A stretch of 64,000 bases of DNA from Anabaena subtropica FACHB-260 (GTDB lineage: Bacteria > Cyanobacteriota > Cyanobacteriia > Cyanobacteriales > Nostocaceae): positions 1-64,000 of the forward strand of contig NZ_JACJRF010000023.1 in assembly GCF_014697105.1 (NCBI RefSeq), in the 5' to 3' direction. The translations under genes and the position numbers were made by a program. Below the pieces are notes generated by a model. The model saw only the letters and a list, made by a program, of their open reading frames with translations, searched no databases and was not told the origin of the DNA. This document shows, piece by piece, positions 26,474-33,905 of this stretch (position 1 is its first letter; each line of letters opens with the position of its first letter).

Positions 26474-27358
26474 TTATAACTTCTGCAACAACTCCTGAGT
26501 TAACTGCAAAAATGCCTTAGAACCGGCTGACTGGGGTGCGTTCAACACAACCGGCATAAAACTATCTACAGCTTTAGCAACATTAATATCAACTGGAATT
26601 TGTGCCTTACAAATCTGTTCTACACCAAAATCTTCCACAACTCGGTGCATCACTTGTTTGTAATATCTACCAGTAAGTAGATTAGTGTTGCACATACTAA
26701 AGACAATTCCCAGCATTTTTATATTTATCTTCGCTTCTTGTTCATGACTATCTTTTAACTGCCCAATACGTCTTTCTAACAGTTGAATTCCCACCACAGA
26801 TAAGGGTTCAGGTTTAGCAGGTAACAGATAGAAATCACTAGCAGCCAAGGCGCTACGAGTCATTAAATTATAGCCAGGGGCGCAATCTAAAAGAATAAAA
26901 TCATATTCGTCGCGCACTGGTTTTAAGATGTTATTAATCAAGACTCTTTCAAAGCGATTCCAAACATTTTCAAAGTTTTGTTCACCTAACGCAACTGTTT
27001 GTCTATGCAGCATTTCTGAGACGACAAATTCATCATATAAGTCTATATCTCCTGGTAATAAATTTAGGTCGGAGAGATTACAGACGTTATTTTGAATAAT
27101 ATCCTTGATTGTCAGCTTGCCGTTGGGGTCTGGATTAATAACATCATCAATTAGATATCTAAATGTTAGTCTTTGTTTGCGCCGCTTGGCAAAGTCTAAA
27201 GGCGACATCAAACTAAGTGTGGCGCTGATTTGTGTATCTAAATCCAGCACCAGCACCCGTTTACCGTAGTTTTTCGCCAAACAGGTAGCTAAGTTCACGG
27301 TGAGGGTTGTTTTCCCGACACCGCCTTTCATGTTTGCTGTAGCAATTACATATCCCAT
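26474..27358 (-). CDS. ParA family ATPase
   Basis: A deviant Walker-type partition ATPase. MGYVIATANMKGGVGKTT holds the deviant Walker A KGGVGKTT with its signature lysine, at residues 11-18. Walker A' follows in VLVLDLDTQISATLSL and Walker B in YDFILLDCAPGYNLMTRSAL. The C-terminal part has PKAVDSFMPVV-like ParA helices. I start it at ATG 27358 (294 aa) because the 10 residues encoded upstream are unlike the family. No parB gene or parS-like repeats are adjacent. It could be an orphan ParA that positions a protein cargo, or a relic of an integrated element, which would fit its TA and FtsK-type neighbours. Confidence 0.9.
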   Translation of the reverse strand: MGYVIATANMKGGVGKTTLTVNLATCLAKNYGKRVLVLDLDTQISATLSLMSPLDFAKRRKQRLTFRYLIDDVINPDPNGKLTIKDIIQNNVCNLSDLNLLPGDIDLYDEFVVSEMLHRQTVALGEQNFENVWNRFERVLINNILKPVRDEYDFILLDCAPGYNLMTRSALAASDFYLLPAKPEPLSVVGIQLLERRIGQLKDSHEQEAKINIKMLGIVFSMCNTNLLTGRYYKQVMHRVVEDFGVEQICKAQIPVDINVAKAVDSFMPVVLNAPQSAGSKAFLQLTQELLQKL

Positions 27359-27571
27359 TTGTGATTTCCTCTGATGACGCGTTCCCATTTGGTAGCGTAC
27401 ACCCGTTCTGAATAGTTTAATCTTCTGGTAAATTTAATATTTACAGTAAATCGAACCCACATTCCGCACATAAGCAAGATAAATCATCGTCCACATCAGT
27501 TCGTAAATATAACCTGTTCCCCAATTTATGGGAAATTAAAATCTATTAATATTCATTTGATACAAATTTTA

Positions 27572-27874
27572 CTACTCATTGGGATCTGCAAATAAAGATT
27601 CTAAATCTCGATAACCACTGGCAACATGAGTAACACTAATTCCATCTTCGTTAGGGTAGTAAAAAATAATGTAATCATCCACAACAAACCCGCGCAAATT
27701 CGGCAGAAGTCTTCCATAACTTTTACCCATGTTGGGAAAACTAGCGACTAACTTACACTTCTGGCGAATTTCATCAAAAAGCTTACTGGCTGCTTTTGGG
27801 TTACTGTGAGCAATATATTCACAAATTTCATTTAAGTCTTGAATTGCTGCATCTGAAAATGAATAATTACTCAT
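27572..27874 (-). CDS. RelE/ParE superfamily toxin
   Basis: A 100-aa protein with the ParE-type fold pattern: YSFSDAAIQDLNEICEYIAHSNPKAASKLFDEI (two N-terminal helices), then FPNMGKSYGRLLPNLRGFVVDDYIIFYYPNEDGISVTHVASGYRDLESLF, with the R..P.LR.....YIIFY.. strand motif typical of ParE. ParE toxins inhibit gyrase and RelE toxins cut mRNA; the sequence alone does not decide which. Its ATG (27874) overlaps the antitoxin stop by 4 bases, the usual translational coupling of TA operons. The operon is probably autoregulated by the antitoxin complex. Confidence 0.88.
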   Translation of the reverse strand: MSNYSFSDAAIQDLNEICEYIAHSNPKAASKLFDEIRQKCKLVASFPNMGKSYGRLLPNLRGFVVDDYIIFYYPNEDGISVTHVASGYRDLESLFADPNE

Positions 27875-28128
27875 TCAGAAGAGTCCTCAGCAATTTGATG
27901 AATTTTCTCTTGTAATTTAGCAAATACAAATTCGCCATCAGTTACTTTTCCCTTAGCAATTTGTTCAGTTCCTACAGCAATTTTTTGGCGTAATTCTTCA
28001 ATTCGCTGTTCTCTTTCTTGTAGCAGCTTAAAGGCTTCATTGATGACTTCATCCGCGCAAGCAAATCTACCACTTGCAAGCTGTGCCTGAATAAATTGCT
28101 CTAGCTCTGGTTTAATTTGGATGTACAT
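27871..28128 (-). CDS. ParD-like antitoxin
   Basis: The cognate antitoxin of the downstream ParE-like toxin. From the ATG at 28128 it has 85 aa: MYIQIKPELEQFIQAQLASGRFACADEVINEAFKLLQE forms the ribbon-helix-helix DNA-binding part (about 1-40), and the acidic, helical rest would wrap the toxin. An upstream in-frame start at 28164 would add 12 residues without RHH similarity, so the shorter start is preferred. The pair sits between the parA-like gene and the three-gene nuclease/motor operon, where it could stabilise that region. Confidence 0.88.
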   Translation of the reverse strand: MYIQIKPELEQFIQAQLASGRFACADEVINEAFKLLQEREQRIEELRQKIAVGTEQIAKGKVTDGEFVFAKLQEKIHQIAEDSSE

Positions 28129-28266
28129 ACTTTCTAATTTGAAATAATTAGTACTACAACTCATCCTAGCAATATTGCCTCGATTGAGGCTTTCAAATTA
28201 TAGCAGTGTAGGAAGTTTGAATTTATCTCAGGCAGAGGTGCAGAGAGGGGAACTAAGGCTAATTGT

Positions 28267-30858
28267 CTAAATTGATGGTATCTGAATTGTTTTAGCAAAT
28301 AAGCTTTGTAGGCGGTGCAATTGGGGGCCAAGTTGGTAGAGTAAATCACCTTTACCCAAAAGGTAAGCGGCGGATGTTTCGGTTCCACCTAGAACAATTT
28401 TTGAGTCGGCTTCACTGGCAGTTCGTAAAGCAACTCTTCCTGGTAGATTTGAACGGATAATTGGGGTGACAATACTAGCTTCTGGGCGTTGAGTGGCAAT
28501 AATTAGATGAATACCCGCAGCCCTTGCCATTGCACCTAAACGTTTAATGCTCTGTTCTAAAGCTTTGCGAATCTCTTTTTCGGCCATAAAATCTGCATAT
28601 TCATCAAATATACAGACAATGCGGGGTAGAGGTTGATGAGAACGCTGATTGTAGGTAGTTAAATCAGCACAACTAGCTTTTTCAAACTGCTGATAACGGA
28701 ACTCCATTTCTAAAACTAATTCTTCCATAAGTTCAGTAGCGCGATCGCTTTCTTTGACGACTGGTGAATATAACCACGCCATACGTTCAAACTCTGGAAA
28801 GGTAACACGCTTAGGATCAACTAGGGCTATTTTGAGATTTTTCGGGGAATAACGATATAGTAAGCTGAGGAGGAGCGATCGCAAAAACTCACTTTTACCG
28901 CTACCAGTTGTCCCACCAACTAAAAAGTGACAAGTATTGGGGTCAGATAAATCAGTTTCTACTAATTTTCCCTCTAAATTTATACCAATGGCAATTTTTA
29001 CGGGTGCAGTTGCAGGTAAAGGTTGCTGTTGAATATACTCTGTAAAATTAGCAGCCTGTCTATCTGGACGGGGTAAATCAATACTGACATAACCAGCTTG
29101 GGGAGTAATTAAGGGTTTATCGGCTAAACTCAACTGCACTTGCAAGTCATTTGATAATCTTAGGAGTGCGCTGACTTTCACGCCCAAATTAGGTTTGAGC
29201 TTCACCCTGATAAAACTAGGCCCCACAGCAGCACCTAAGTAGTCAACACCAACACCAAAAGATTGCAAGGTATTAACCAAAGCTTCCCCCGTTTCATCAG
29301 CATTAGGTATTTGTTCCTTAACTCTAATCTCAGACTCAATAGATTTCTCCCCCCTTTTTAAGGGGGGTTGGGGGGGATCAGATATTACTTCACCAAAAAA
29401 AGTCTGACATTTTTGCTGCTGGGGGCAAATTTCGCACAGATGAAGCTGAGTTGTTCGCGGTGGTGGGTTGGGATTAGGCGATTCCCAATTCAACCATTGC
29501 TGCATTTGTAACAACTTGTAGGGAATTAATTGATGTACTGTATTTTCTAACTGTTCCCAAGAATAACGATACTCTTTAAACTCAGGTAATACACAATAAA
29601 CTGCTGAATCAACGGCTACTTTCTTCTTTTGGTAAAGCATATAACTATAAAGTGAAACCTGAGCCAATTGTCCTGAAGGGTCTACAGGTTGATAGGTTTT
29701 AAACTCCACCACACATAGGCGATTTAGTTCAAAATTAAATACTAAACAATCAAATTCACCTCTAACTCTTTGCTTGCTTCCATCAGGTAGAATAAAGTAA
29801 TTTTCAATGCTGCGTTCTGTAGATAAAAAAGTGTTGCTAATAACTGTGTCTGCATTACAATATTGACGATTAATTAATAGCAGTTCTGTAAAGTGTTTAA
29901 TTAATCCTTGTAATCCCTGCCAAACTTGTAAAAGTGCTTGTGCTTGGCTGGCATCTTTTTGAATTGCTGCTTGTAAATAGGGAAAAAATTCTATTTGATA
30001 AAATATTTGTTGAATTTGTGATGTAATTGTTTCAAGATTTATTTGGGAAGGGTTCGGTTTAAATAGGTTTTTAAATTGTGGTTCAATAACAGCCAATTTA
30101 ACAAAGTTATCTGCTAGATGATGAAATGGATTACCGATACCAATGGCTGTATTTTTGGGTAAAAATATTGCCTTGTCGCCAAATTGATGATTTAGATAAA
30201 ATAGTCGAGGACATTCAAAAGCAACTCGGACTTTAGTAACACTTAAAGATGGGTTTTCCATTTCTTTGCTTAACTGATTTAATTCATCGTTTTCTATAAA
30301 AATATTACCGACAGCATTGGGATTAGATATTTCAAGTAACCGACGATGTACAGCCGCTAGATAAACTGTATCCATCGCCGCATATTCCAACTGTTTTTGG
30401 CTGAGGGGGCGCTTTCCCCAATCACTTGATTGTTCTGCTATATCTACATTGGAAAAATGACAAAGTTCGACTGCTAAAGTCTTTAATTTTAAATTTGAAG
30501 TTTGTAACCGTTGGCGAGTAATTTTTCTGGCTATTTGTAAAGTGCAAATGACATTTTTAGCTAATTGTCCACCTAAATATTTAATGTCAAAACTAGCATT
30601 GTGAAAGACTTTGATAATGCTAGAGTTAAGCATGATTTGGTTAATAAAATCTGTTGCTAAATCATGTTTATCAAGTACATCAAGAATATAAGCAGATGTG
30701 CCTGTTGTGTCTGTATGTTCAGCCAATACCTGAATCAGCGATAATTTTGGTTGAGAGGTATGCCAATGAGCAATTTCTGTGTCTACCCACAGTGTTTTAG
30801 CTGTTGCTAATCTGGATATAACATCTATAATTTCTGTTGCTTCTTTCAGGTAGTGCAT
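28267..30858 (-). CDS. DEDDy exonuclease-Cas4/RecB nuclease-FtsK/HerA motor fusion
   Basis: An 863-aa three-part enzyme. (1) Residues 1-185 are an RNase D/DnaQ-type 3'-5' exonuclease with D26 and E28 (WVDTE), D91 (HNASFD), and Y159 with D163 (QLEYAAMDTVYL), the full DEDDy set. (2) Residues 205-490 are a Cas4/RecB-type PD-(D/E)XK nuclease with D370 (RGEFDCL), E385-x-K387 (VVEFKTYQ) and Q397/Q400; C216 plus C475, C478 and C484 match the four-cysteine Fe-S arrangement. (3) Residues 520-863 are an FtsK-type motor with Walker A GGTTGSGKS (648-656) and Walker B RIVCIFDEYAD (746-756). The linker residues DPPQPPLKRGE (494-504) come from an absorbed repeat. It is the last gene of a three-gene operon, 27 bp after the ATPase gene. 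Confidence 0.9.
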   Translation of the reverse strand: MHYLKEATEIIDVISRLATAKTLWVDTEIAHWHTSQPKLSLIQVLAEHTDTTGTSAYILDVLDKHDLATDFINQIMLNSSIIKVFHNASFDIKYLGGQLAKNVICTLQIARKITRQRLQTSNLKLKTLAVELCHFSNVDIAEQSSDWGKRPLSQKQLEYAAMDTVYLAAVHRRLLEISNPNAVGNIFIENDELNQLSKEMENPSLSVTKVRVAFECPRLFYLNHQFGDKAIFLPKNTAIGIGNPFHHLADNFVKLAVIEPQFKNLFKPNPSQINLETITSQIQQIFYQIEFFPYLQAAIQKDASQAQALLQVWQGLQGLIKHFTELLLINRQYCNADTVISNTFLSTERSIENYFILPDGSKQRVRGEFDCLVFNFELNRLCVVEFKTYQPVDPSGQLAQVSLYSYMLYQKKKVAVDSAVYCVLPEFKEYRYSWEQLENTVHQLIPYKLLQMQQWLNWESPNPNPPPRTTQLHLCEICPQQQKCQTFFGEVISDPPQPPLKRGEKSIESEIRVKEQIPNADETGEALVNTLQSFGVGVDYLGAAVGPSFIRVKLKPNLGVKVSALLRLSNDLQVQLSLADKPLITPQAGYVSIDLPRPDRQAANFTEYIQQQPLPATAPVKIAIGINLEGKLVETDLSDPNTCHFLVGGTTGSGKSEFLRSLLLSLLYRYSPKNLKIALVDPKRVTFPEFERMAWLYSPVVKESDRATELMEELVLEMEFRYQQFEKASCADLTTYNQRSHQPLPRIVCIFDEYADFMAEKEIRKALEQSIKRLGAMARAAGIHLIIATQRPEASIVTPIIRSNLPGRVALRTASEADSKIVLGGTETSAAYLLGKGDLLYQLGPQLHRLQSLFAKTIQIPSI
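29347..29379. repeat. Palindromic repeat absorbed into a coding region
   Basis: CTCCCCCCTTTTTAAGGGGG followed by GTTGGGGGGGATC is the well-known intergenic cyanobacterial repeat whose minus-strand reading gives DPPQPPLKRGE. Here it is in frame inside the 863-aa gene, at residues 494-504 between nuclease and motor. A related fragment (CCCCCTTTTTAATGGGGATC) lies near 42942-42961 between genes. Confidence 0.85.
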
Positions 30859-30885
30859 TGACTAATTTTTCACAACTAATAATAA

Positions 30886-33006
30886 TCACGCAACTAAACA
30901 AATCAGCTGATCTTGTAACCCAGCTTCTGGGTTAATTATTTGTATTTCTTTGTCTTGACATAATAGCTGAATTACACTTTTAACGTCAGTTTCTTTCACA
31001 TCAGGAAACTGCCCGATAGACTGTTTAACTAAAGTAGGTAGTCCCATAAACCCTTGAGTTCTAACTATATTTAACAAAAATTCTTTGACTGGTTGTAAAT
31101 TTTCTTCACCTTTACCGTTCGATGTTTTTTGCTTATTGACAATTTTTAAATCTTGCAATAAGGTACATGAATGCAAAATCTTTGTATCTCTGATAAGAGA
31201 TTGTAGTTCCTGCAAATTAACTGCTTTCCCTTTGCTAGTTAATACTAAATCTTGAGATAATGCAGAATTTACCAAACTTTGGTATGTTGCCAGGTAATGA
31301 ACAGAATTTAAGTTTGGCTTAATATGATGATGACTAGTGTGTGTAAAAATTTGTTGATATATTTGATTACCAGCAAGTCTTGGTGTCCCCACTCCTCCAA
31401 TCCTAATTAAGTATAGAATTTGACATGATTTTTTTTGAATTACATTTTGGCAAGCACTCATTACGTTGTAAAAATTCCTCATACTCAAGTCTTCTGTCCA
31501 GACTATTCCTATACGTTCGAGCTTGCCAGGATTATGATAGCTAAATGAATAACTAGCATACTTTCCACTTAAGAGTTTAGGCTTGATTTCATGTATTTTG
31601 AATGTAGTTAAAGCCTCTTGTAACATCCGTATCAAGTCAGATGATGATAACAGGGTAATTTTGGTATATTTCTCCTGAATTTTTCTATATTCTTTCTGCC
31701 ACAGTAGTTGAAATTCTGCGGCAATTTTCTCTGTATCTTCTTGAGGTTGTAACGGGGAGATGCTGACTGTACCATCAGACTCTCTAATTATTGAGATATT
31801 AACTTTTTCGGGATCTAATTTTGTTTTCTTTAGCGGTATAACATCTATAGATATAGGTGGTTTAATAGAAATTTTATATTTTTGATATTCCTGCCGTCCT
31901 AAGATTAGAGTATTCCTCGGCATAGTCTTACCACCGGGAAAATGTTGTTCTAATACTTGTCGAGTTAGTGGAAAAATAGGCGAATCAGGCTGAATACTAG
32001 CTTCTTGATGTATAGGCTTAAGATTATACGCCCAAATTGCTTCTGCTTGGTCTAAGGTAATATTTTTTAACTTAACTAATCGATGAATTCCGGCTCTGTC
32101 AGCTGGTTGAATTCGGTCTATATTTCGTTTCCATGTACTAGTAATAACACTAATAATTACTAGAAAATTTTTGAGATAATCACTATGAATAGTCGTATTT
32201 ACATTAAAAAAAGGCTGTATATCTAGATAACCATCTGACAAGGGGGGCATACTATCCAAATTATCAAAGCACAAAACTATAGGTTGAGTTTCTGTAGAAA
32301 TCCTTCCGAAGTTCGCTAGAATATTTTTAGCTGCATCTTCAGTATCAATGCAGATTTTAACTTTTAACATTTGCATTGATTCTTCGCTGAGGTCGTCTCC
32401 ACGCAACCATTCACAAGCTAAATCATATAATTCTGGGTCAGTAAGATCGTGTAATACTCCAAAGAAAATATCAGGATTATAAATATTGGCTTTTCTGTAA
32501 GTCTCCTTGAGATGTTTGATAAATTTCTGACGATCATTTTGTAAAAGCTGCCAAATACTATCATTAAAAATTTGATTTTTAAGATTGCGCTTGGTGAATG
32601 CCGATAAACTTTTGAGCCACAACATTAATTGTGAATCTTGCTGCCCTTCAGGAATTTGGACTAAACTGTCAACAGTATGGCGTAAAATATGCCGCCAAAT
32701 ATTACCACTATCCGCCCAATTGCATTGAATATAAGCAAAAAAAGCTTTGGTGTTTAGTGTACGTTTAATTCTTCCTAATAAATAACTTTTTCCAGAGCCA
32801 GAATCGCCAAGTAACAATGCTGTGCGACTGCGGTGATCTATAGCTACTAAATCAAGTAGCTCCTCAATTTCATTTAAAGCCTCTTTATGAATTGACTCAA
32901 CTGTTAGTGCTGTGTTTTGGTTTTCAGCCCAAAAGTTTATTGACTTGAAGTTGATTAGATCAAAAGGGTTAACTTCGCGTTTAATGATTTCATTAATTTC
33001 TGTCAT
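30886..33006 (-). CDS. P-loop (AAA/Orc-like) ATPase, 706 aa
   Basis: The middle gene of the operon. Walker A is GDSGSGKS (67-74) and Walker B IVLCFDNLD (243-251), with an Orc/STAND-like layout to about residue 350 that includes ISVITSTWKRNIDR and DRAGIHRLVKLKNITLDQAE. Residues 430-570 contain a possible alpha/beta domain (ERIGIVWTEDLSMRNFYNVM, SCQILYLIRIG). The C-terminus (about 630-706) looks like a winged helix (GFMGLPTLVKQSIGQF). It resembles ATPases of DNA-transaction and defence cassettes, such as the BrxD/DUF2791-type proteins, only in general plan, and I would not assign that family. ATG at 33006. It likely loads or regulates the downstream nuclease-motor. Confidence 0.8.
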   Translation of the reverse strand: MTEINEIIKREVNPFDLINFKSINFWAENQNTALTVESIHKEALNEIEELLDLVAIDHRSRTALLLGDSGSGKSYLLGRIKRTLNTKAFFAYIQCNWADSGNIWRHILRHTVDSLVQIPEGQQDSQLMLWLKSLSAFTKRNLKNQIFNDSIWQLLQNDRQKFIKHLKETYRKANIYNPDIFFGVLHDLTDPELYDLACEWLRGDDLSEESMQMLKVKICIDTEDAAKNILANFGRISTETQPIVLCFDNLDSMPPLSDGYLDIQPFFNVNTTIHSDYLKNFLVIISVITSTWKRNIDRIQPADRAGIHRLVKLKNITLDQAEAIWAYNLKPIHQEASIQPDSPIFPLTRQVLEQHFPGGKTMPRNTLILGRQEYQKYKISIKPPISIDVIPLKKTKLDPEKVNISIIRESDGTVSISPLQPQEDTEKIAAEFQLLWQKEYRKIQEKYTKITLLSSSDLIRMLQEALTTFKIHEIKPKLLSGKYASYSFSYHNPGKLERIGIVWTEDLSMRNFYNVMSACQNVIQKKSCQILYLIRIGGVGTPRLAGNQIYQQIFTHTSHHHIKPNLNSVHYLATYQSLVNSALSQDLVLTSKGKAVNLQELQSLIRDTKILHSCTLLQDLKIVNKQKTSNGKGEENLQPVKEFLLNIVRTQGFMGLPTLVKQSIGQFPDVKETDVKSVIQLLCQDKEIQIINPEAGLQDQLICLVA

Positions 33007-33059
33007 GATTTAAATTGAGTGAGAGGAGGAACTAATTTGAGGAAAAATTACTAGAAATA

Positions 33060-33905
33060 TTAATTGTCTACTGTAATAAAAAATAGAGAACCACCAATAT
33101 TTTGAGGTATACCAGCATCTATTTGTTCAGGGGTATAGGCGCTTACTTCTTGTAAGGAACTTAACTCTATTTGATCACTCTTTTGCAAACGATACAATGC
33201 CTGATCTAATTCATCGCGTGATAGAGGGGGTTGTAATTTTTGTCTTAGATGGAAAATTGGTAAATAATTCTCTGTACCTAATTCCCGATCTAATTTCTCA
33301 ATAATCAGTAAAATTTCTTCATCATCAATTGTTTCAACTGATGACTCAACCTTCACAGGAGGCAATGTATTTATCGTCTCTGACTTAACAGCTAAAGTCT
33401 TGCGTAAAAAACGGACGTAATTTCCTAAGAGTTCTTGACTGATGACAGGGTTAGAGCTTTTATTGGGGTTATAATCATCCCGCAAATACTCAATCCCTCT
33501 TTCAGTCAGCCAAACCTCACCTTTAGCTTTCTTGAGTTGTTGTTCAGCTTCAATTAACCCGCGTTCACTGAGGGTTTTTAATATCGTGTCTCGTTCACCA
33601 GCCTTTAATGAGGTAATTTTGCTGGGTGCGATTTTACCCGAAGCTTTACTGATTTTCTCTAGTACCTTGAGTTCTTTGTCTGTTATGGGTAATTGTCCTA
33701 CTTCGAGTGTTAGGACAGCTTGACCTGCTGGTAAAATCTTAACAGTGGCAATCTCACGGGAATAGTCTACCAGTTCGCGATCGCTTAAGTCTCGACAAAT
33801 TTTATCTTTACCTTTAAAACTACTAAAGGCGCTTGCACTTAGTCCTGTTCGATAATTCGGAAATCCCAATAACTTTAAGAGAAACTTTAATTCATTTGTA
33901 TCCAT
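33060..33905 (-). CDS. Probable winged-helix protein, 281 aa (operon leader)
   Basis: First gene of the three-gene operon, 53 bp before the ATPase gene. Residues 75-150 read like a winged helix-turn-helix (ITDKELKVLEKISKASGKIA, LKTLSERGLIEAEQQ, GEVWLTERGIEYL). Residues 195-260 form a second candidate (IEKLDRELGTENYLPIFHLR, LSRDELDQALYRLQKSDQIE). The N-terminal KFLLKLLGFPNYRTGLSASAFSSF is conserved-looking but unknown. There is no catalytic motif. It may act as the DNA-binding or specificity subunit, or as the operon regulator. ATG at 33905. I do not recognise the family by name. Confidence 0.75.
   Translation of the reverse strand: MDTNELKFLLKLLGFPNYRTGLSASAFSSFKGKDKICRDLSDRELVDYSREIATVKILPAGQAVLTLEVGQLPITDKELKVLEKISKASGKIAPSKITSLKAGERDTILKTLSERGLIEAEQQLKKAKGEVWLTERGIEYLRDDYNPNKSSNPVISQELLGNYVRFLRKTLAVKSETINTLPPVKVESSVETIDDEEILLIIEKLDRELGTENYLPIFHLRQKLQPPLSRDELDQALYRLQKSDQIELSSLQEVSAYTPEQIDAGIPQNIGGSLFFITVDN

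Follow-up and report, generated by a model that had tools for sequence, protein, structure and literature searches.

The window analysed here is a stretch of 64,000 nucleotides from Anabaena subtropica FACHB-260, and within it we examined a cassette of three genes encoding a 281-amino-acid (aa) protein (HTH), a 706-aa ATPase (ATP) and an 863-aa motor-nuclease fusion (NUC). A sequence-only reading of the window had placed three same-strand genes here with gaps of 53 and 27 bp. The open reading frames (ORFs) were found exactly there, all on the minus strand, with 53 bp between HTH and ATP and 27 bp between ATP and NUC.

33060..33905, minus strand: HTH, 281 aa; putative three winged-helix units at about 1-66, 67-150 and 195-281 (reading of a structural model)
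30886..33006, minus strand: ATP, 706 aa; ORC/Cdc6-like ATPase of the AAA+ class, with an alpha/beta domain (422-590) behind the ATPase part and, at the C-terminus, a helix-strand segment (638-706) resembling a winged helix-turn-helix (wHTH)
28267..30858, minus strand: NUC, 863 aa; DEDDy 3'-5' exonuclease (3-175), Cas4/AddB-type PD-(D/E)XK nuclease (204-485), FtsK alpha domain (515-596) and FtsK motor (618 to about 844)

Domains and conserved residues of the three proteins

The domains of NUC were all recognised by Pfam, with matches to DNA_pol_A_exo1 at 3-175 (E = 3e-28), PDDEXK_1 at 204-485 (E = 1e-9), FtsK_alpha at 515-596 (E = 2.5e-10) and FtsK_SpoIIIE at 618-792 (E = 1e-38). When profiles were searched against the Protein Data Bank (PDB), residues 510-844 matched the solved DNA translocase FtsK (2iuu, E = 2e-67) and the N-terminus, within 3-185, matched structures of diDNase, NrnC, RRP6 and RNase D. 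Neither the gamma nor the membrane families of FtsK were found among the Pfam matches of NUC up to E 1, in contrast to a cellular FtsK, which has the gamma DNA-reading domain at its C-terminus.

Residue conservation was counted in 38 aligned cyanobacterial NUC loci, the window included. The DEDDy set D26/E28/D91/Y159/D163, which the sequence-only reading had described as complete, is full in 34/38 loci. The PD-(D/E)XK core D370/E385/K387 is kept in 36/38 (L065 has N370 and E387, L067 has D385), the cysteines C216/C475/C478/C484, likened to those of Cas4/AddB, are kept in 38/38, and Walker A and B of the FtsK-type motor are present in 37/38, being absent in the broken locus L063. Poorly conserved catalytic residues, which would have spoken against that reading, were thus not what the alignment contained. 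The four cysteines are predicted to hold an iron-sulphur cluster.

Judging from the alignments, the exonuclease domain is a dispensable part of NUC, because it is missing or truncated in four loci (L048 lacks D91, L051 and L058 lack the whole set and L059 has only D163) and the alignment of a plasmid copy of NUC from Pseudanabaena PCC 7367 starts only at residue 199. The second nuclease behaves differently in L065, in which the fused site is lost and D370 and K387 survive in an additional, free-standing copy that has D in place of E385; that the separate copy was retained suggests selection for nuclease activity. In L073 the site of a free nuclease copy is lost and its cysteines are kept. In a midpoint-rooted tree of DEDDy domains the RNase D-like proteins (3 of the 11 rows so labelled are really NUC remnants) nest among the exonuclease domains of NUC, with a support of 0.73 for the enclosing clade, and this topology does not fix the direction of exonuclease capture. 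An RNase D-like gene (309-311 aa) was also seen a few genes from HTH-ATP in the Oscillatoria-type genomes of L162, L165 and L171-L173, and such adjacency might be the route by which the exonuclease joined NUC.

ATP matched AAA_16 at 45-252 above the Pfam cut-off (E = 2e-8), with conserved Walker A and D248, and reached only E = 0.096 against BrxC_BrxD. By sequence it matched no solved structure. When its AlphaFold2 model (pLDDT 86, pTM 0.84) was compared with the PDB using Foldseek, 12 of the 17 rows at E <= 0.001 were titled ORC, OCCM or Cdc6, the top row being an ORC subunit; the remaining five were VCP/p97 or ATAD2, VCP/p97 took the second and third ranks, and TM-scores were low. In the model the alpha/beta domain at 422-590 possibly has an inactive restriction endonuclease (REase) fold, and no conserved D..ExK pattern was seen at 480-536.

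HTH matched no Pfam family above cut-off. Its AlphaFold2 model (pLDDT 83, pTM 0.52) may be read as three winged-helix-like (helix-helix-hairpin) units; no fold match in the PDB was found at E <= 0.001, and some of the weaker rows were winged-helix proteins. A single weak sequence match, to a Z-DNA-binding type domain (E = 0.0035), covers residues 193-249, and the most conserved part of the protein is 195-281 (mean identity 74%).

Linkage, distribution and chromosomal site

The sample consisted of 386 cyanobacterial genomes, among them that of the window. The NUC search gave matches in 83/386 genomes at E <= 1e-20, in many of which just an RNase D-like protein or just a motor was matched, and NUC was counted only where nuclease and motor were both present, that is in 38 genomes. 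Profile searches gave ATP in 57/386 genomes at E 1e-10, 46 of them strong, and HTH in 47/386, 46 of which were kept. Both ATP and HTH were present in 38/38 NUC genomes (Fisher p = 5e-45 for each, phylogeny ignored). The order HTH-ATP-NUC on one strand was contiguous in 33/38, counting L043 (HTH cut by a contig end), L053 (ATP broken) and L063 (NUC split by other genes). The other five were G207 (contig end), G131 (rearranged) and G051, G233 and G101, in which HTH-ATP lies far from NUC. The gene-neighbourhood comparison across cyanobacteria that the sequence-only reading had proposed therefore gave conserved linkage, and homologues lying mostly apart, which would have argued against one system, were seen in only three of 38.

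This co-occurrence despite separation is the best evidence of joint function. That the three linked genes have no joint function, being chance neighbours or hitch-hikers, is very improbable: ATP or HTH occurs without NUC in 11 genomes, as such an explanation would allow, but every NUC genome has both partners, unlinked cases included, and chance linkage was rejected on this count. In the named loci, which are the best 78 of 218 confirmed and whose organism titles we take from the names to be all cyanobacteria, HTH, ATP and motor occur together in 61/78. Two or three ATP genes per locus (HTH-ATP-ATP) were seen in L052, L114, L150, L160-L162, L164, L165, L171-L175, L177 and L186, and some of these loci have no NUC and adjoin a ParA pair.

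Outside chromosomes, ATP and HTH each match one record in a plasmid collection of 72,556 records, the conjugative plasmid of Pseudanabaena PCC 7367, with a NUC-like gene adjoining. No ATP relative was found in the phage and viral collections, and for NUC the viral contigs gave only one weak motor match (27% over residues 644-812).

The cassette is flanked in the window by genes that we place outside the system:

26474..27388, minus strand: orphan ParA, 304 aa
27572..28164, minus strand: toxin-antitoxin-like pair between NUC and ParA, with a ParE-type toxin at 27572-27874 and an upstream small ORF at 27871-28164

The toxin ORF matches ParE_toxin in Pfam (E = 1e-15), and the small ORF is, by its position only, the probable antitoxin; ORFs related to this pair adjoin NUC in L034 too. 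The orphan ParA stands beside the cassette in 18/22 carriers of the host family and in 2/16 other carriers. Within the host family it is 80-94% identical at the cassette site and is retained where the cassette has been lost or has decayed. When ParA, IleRS and two glycosyltransferases were used as site markers, 13/16 carriers outside the host family had none of them. Presence of the cassette is patchy, with decayed remnants in L070-L072 and L074. The distribution is thus in large part that of one inherited site from which the cassette has been lost in places, and a minority of copies lie elsewhere. A description of varied sites outside the family had to be narrowed accordingly, given a marker in 3/16 sampled outside carriers and at least one in 59/78 named loci (the best of 218 confirmed).

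Alternating nuclease-ParA pair and phosphorothioation

Many HTH/ATP genes are adjoined by a pair on the opposite strand, a nuclease-ParA fusion and a ParB-like protein. The fusion is about 450-520 aa long (up to 579) and joins to ParA a nuclease domain of HsdR-N type, whose Pfam match is close to the cut-off; an alignment of 16 fusions shows no variation at E70 and K72 and almost none at D46. The partner, which has the N-terminal domain of ParB and a length of about 230-310 aa, is usual, not constant.

A full-length fusion was found in 43/386 genomes (57 when partial, broken or divergent copies are counted), and 0/43 were among the 38 NUC genomes. Within the window's order (105 genomes) there were 38 with NUC, 39 with full-length fusion, 0 with both and 28 with neither (p = 8e-11), and within the host family (43 genomes) 22, 17, 0 and 4, respectively (p = 1e-8), phylogeny being ignored in both tests. 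One of the four host-family genomes with neither (G074) has a divergent fusion copy at the same site, and partial or broken copies are present in the NUC genomes G300, G121 and G360. Genera g1, g4, g6 and g13 each contain species with NUC and other species with the fusion. Strict exclusion was ruled out, as 4/78 named loci have full-length fusion and motor together (L124, L136, L165 and, with a divergent fusion, L120), and a motor with a partial fusion copy was found in L127, L155 and L156. Among ten fetched host-family fusion loci, four lie beside the same ParA (L191, L193, L195, L196) and one more has a glycosyltransferase marker, so part of the alternation is replacement at a shared site. 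In three Calothrix-type loci (L146, L148, L149) the reading frames of HTH and ATP are open, as is that of NUC over its initial 485-492 residues, which comprise both nucleases, and fusion/ParB-type genes take the motor's place. The fusion of L149 is divergent and no ParB partner was recognised there; in L148 a motor remnant of 71 residues lies beyond the pair.

L146:11670-13850, L148:10577-12654, L149:11266-12741: nuclease-ParA fusion in the motor's place, Calothrix-type loci
L160-L162, L165, L171-L173, L182-L185, L189-L208: nuclease-ParA fusion beside HTH/ATP or in the place of the FtsK motor

A further comparison concerned the genes of DNA phosphorothioation (PT). dndC was found above its curated cut-off in 36/38 NUC genomes, and the window's own genome has dndB, C, D and E together with a second DndD/PbeC-type ABC ATPase at C39:17500-37400 (L219), off the cassette contig. 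No dndFGH was recognised in that stretch by ORF size and start, a comparison short of a full search. In the dnd region of a same-genus relative, L220:12498-14891 encodes a 797-aa protein with N-terminal PADLOC matches to PDC-M55C and HEC-05, a possible local restriction partner. According to the available text of PMC8569181, dnd clusters are enriched in Nostocales, dndFGH is absent there and dndH genes are enriched there. Judging from its Nostoc-type and Oscillatoria-type named relatives, the window's order presumably contains the Nostocales, and some of the reported dndH genes could, as a guess, be motors like that of NUC. A search with TIGR03238 (DndH) gave 0 matches, controls included, and says nothing on absence.

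It is possible, if doubtful, that the cassette supplies the restriction function to a PT system whose modification half, dndBCDE, lies elsewhere in the genome, and that like DndFGH/SspFGH it attacks DNA without PT marks, which would be a special form of the anti-invader role discussed below. The dnd genes on another contig of the window's genome, the relationship of the NUC motor to SspH and the reported Nostocales clusters without dndFGH are compatible with this. Within the order, NUC or fusion was found in 73/93 genomes with dndC and in 4/12 without (p = 0.0024, phylogeny ignored). However, dndC is near-core there (93/105), so that 36/38 is little above background, and NUC alone is not significantly associated with it (p = 0.20, phylogeny ignored). 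Moreover, G051, assembled in one contig, has a complete cassette with intact NUC residues and no match to dndC or dndD, the NUC carrier G159 is without dndC, and NUC and a full-length fusion are both missing from 20/93 dndC genomes. In a bolder variant, which we consider unlikely, the cassette and the nuclease-ParA/ParB pair would be two interchangeable, unlinked restriction halves of the near-universal phosphorothioation of filamentous cyanobacteria. An FtsK ring and a ParA-based pair would then be alternative drives of one DNA-destroying machine, as is suggested by the retention of both nucleases with fusion genes in the motor's place (L146, L148, L149).

Relation to capture systems and proposed function

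Orc/CDC6-HerA/FtsK "capture systems" were predicted by Rakesh, Aravind and Krishnan (2024; PMC10853773), whose text on them reports prediction only, and the same Orc/CDC6-motor theme is repeated in the available part of a 2026 BREX paper (PMC12839542). The parts given in the former are an Orc/CDC6 ATPase, an inactive REase between the AAA+ domain and a C-terminal wHTH, an active REase and a HerA/FtsK motor; one set has FtsK-alpha, a subset has a protein with 2-4 wHTH domains, and in others a 3'-5' exonuclease is fused to the motor. Because the domains found or modelled in HTH, ATP and NUC make up the same list, with the inactive REase as a putative element, the cassette is predicted to be a member of this class as that text describes it. 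ATP has an Orc/CDC6-clade AAA+ domain (by AAA_16 and the ORC-type Foldseek rows); the same protein goes on with a further alpha/beta domain and ends in a segment resembling a wHTH. NUC has a predicted active REase-fold nuclease, going by its core residues, a HerA/FtsK motor with FtsK-alpha and a motor-fused 3'-5' exonuclease; a separate, putatively multi-wHTH protein is shared as well. What differs from the published description is that a DEDDy exonuclease, a four-cysteine Cas4/AddB-type nuclease and the motor are in one protein, next to a separate, putatively multi-wHTH gene. Neither "cyanobacteria" nor "Cas4" occurs in the main text of PMC10853773, and this form may be drawn in its Figure 7 or supplements. 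The statement of the sequence-only reading that no named system has this set was therefore wrong at the level of the class, and its own reservation that the set might be a known system under another name holds in part, as the class is known.

Comparison with single described systems gave partial likeness. Among defence-system hidden Markov models, a check proposed by the same reading, parts of NUC were matched in PADLOC: the motor by SspH (E = 1e-66), mad8 and HerA, and the exonuclease by the C-terminus of BrxHI (E = 8e-12). SspFGH (PMC8092258, as far as its available text goes) likewise consists of three genes and includes an ATPase with Walker A and a C-terminus resembling FtsK, and the motors of SspH and NUC are 36% identical over 281 columns. 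However, SspH, with about 1770-1815 aa against 863 in NUC, aligns with it in the motor only. With profiles of three sequences each, the alignment of SspF to ATP was confined to the P-loop region (hhalign probability 5.4%, E = 0.007) and SspG gave no alignment with HTH (0.1%). No cassette protein had a PADLOC match to SspF or SspG, and membership of SspFGH was rejected, only the motor being common. No sspBCD was found as a constant neighbour among the clustered flanking ORFs, which were not each searched for SspB/C/D. An SspFGH cluster does lie beside sspD in L080 (PADLOC names all four), with related genes in L081 and L079. A gene neighbouring such a cluster presumably encodes a cysteine desulfurase, judging by its motif. 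On a Hymenobacter plasmid (L087:6126-13261) the gene of a 993-aa FtsK protein with an SspH-like motor is lined up with three hypothetical genes, and a DruA gene lies a few genes away; this row is possibly another FtsK defence set.

The translocase-plus-nuclease logic of DndFGH is shared, but DndH as described in PMC10853773 has eight domains and about 1700 residues, and no dnd_assoc family was found among the NCBIfam matches of the three proteins up to E 1, so membership was rejected. BREX type 2 BrxD with BrxHI (PMC12839542, available text) resembles the cassette in having an ORC/Cdc6 ATPase beside a DNA motor protein; unlike the NUC motor, BrxHI is an SF2 helicase, not an FtsK. A different parallel comes from end resection in archaea. 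In HerA-NurA a hexameric ring of the HerA/FtsK clade is coupled to a nuclease, as in the cassette, but the two are separate polypeptides and the nuclease fold is different; to our knowledge no ORC-like or wHTH partner accompanies them.

From these sequence comparisons the cassette probably encodes an anti-invader nuclease that is made of three proteins and belongs with the Orc/CDC6-HerA/FtsK capture systems. HTH and the ORC/Cdc6-like ATP would bind DNA and find or license the target, and would load the FtsK-type ring onto it as ORC/Cdc6 load a ring; such a role would fit the fold matches of the ATP model. The ring would pump double-stranded DNA past the Cas4/AddB-type nuclease, which would cut it, and the DEDDy domain, where present, would trim or degrade 3' ends, so that plasmid, conjugative or phage DNA is destroyed. 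Host DNA might be spared by the unlinked dnd phosphorothioation or through topology, ends or replication structures. Defence is supported by the co-occurrence of all three parts in 38/38 NUC genomes, including the three with HTH-ATP far from NUC, by the 13/16 outside-family carriers without the window's flanking genes, by the conjugative-plasmid copy and by patchy presence with remnants. The conserved gene order, the free-standing nuclease of L065 and the published class made of like parts add to this. By analogy, the SspH match of the motor points the same way, as SspH is part of a phage-restricting system.

Several observations weigh against this anti-invader function. Where the sequence-only reading had looked for linkage within genomic islands, the three-gene linkage is conserved, but the cassette often keeps one inherited chromosomal site, as the markers at most of the named loci attest, and the argument for a mobile defence cassette is weaker for it. 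No constant fourth neighbour able to protect self DNA was recognised among the clustered flanking ORFs, ATP and HTH have no confident match among the PADLOC models, NUC being matched in parts only, and the REase fold of the ATP alpha/beta domain is a putative one. An inherited site also fits vertical inheritance with a maintenance role, in which the proteins would serve chromosome or plasmid segregation, dimer resolution or end processing. The site shared with the orphan ParA in most host-family carriers, the alternation with a ParA/ParB-type pair and the FtsK alpha domain kept in the NUC motor would suit such a role. We nevertheless regard it as rather unlikely, as NUC is present in only 38/386 genomes and decayed in several close relatives, two conserved nucleases suit DNA destruction better, and NUC has no FtsK gamma or membrane family among its Pfam matches up to E 1.

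If the anti-invader function is correct, the cassette would represent, in compact and clearly bounded form, a class of defences known, in the text that describes it, only from prediction. Its carriers include cultured and genetically tractable strains. Two questions are thereby made testable: what, if anything, uses PT marks in cyanobacteria that are reported, in the available text, to be without dndFGH, and for what reason a nuclease with an FtsK motor and a ParA-nuclease pair swap, often at the same locus.

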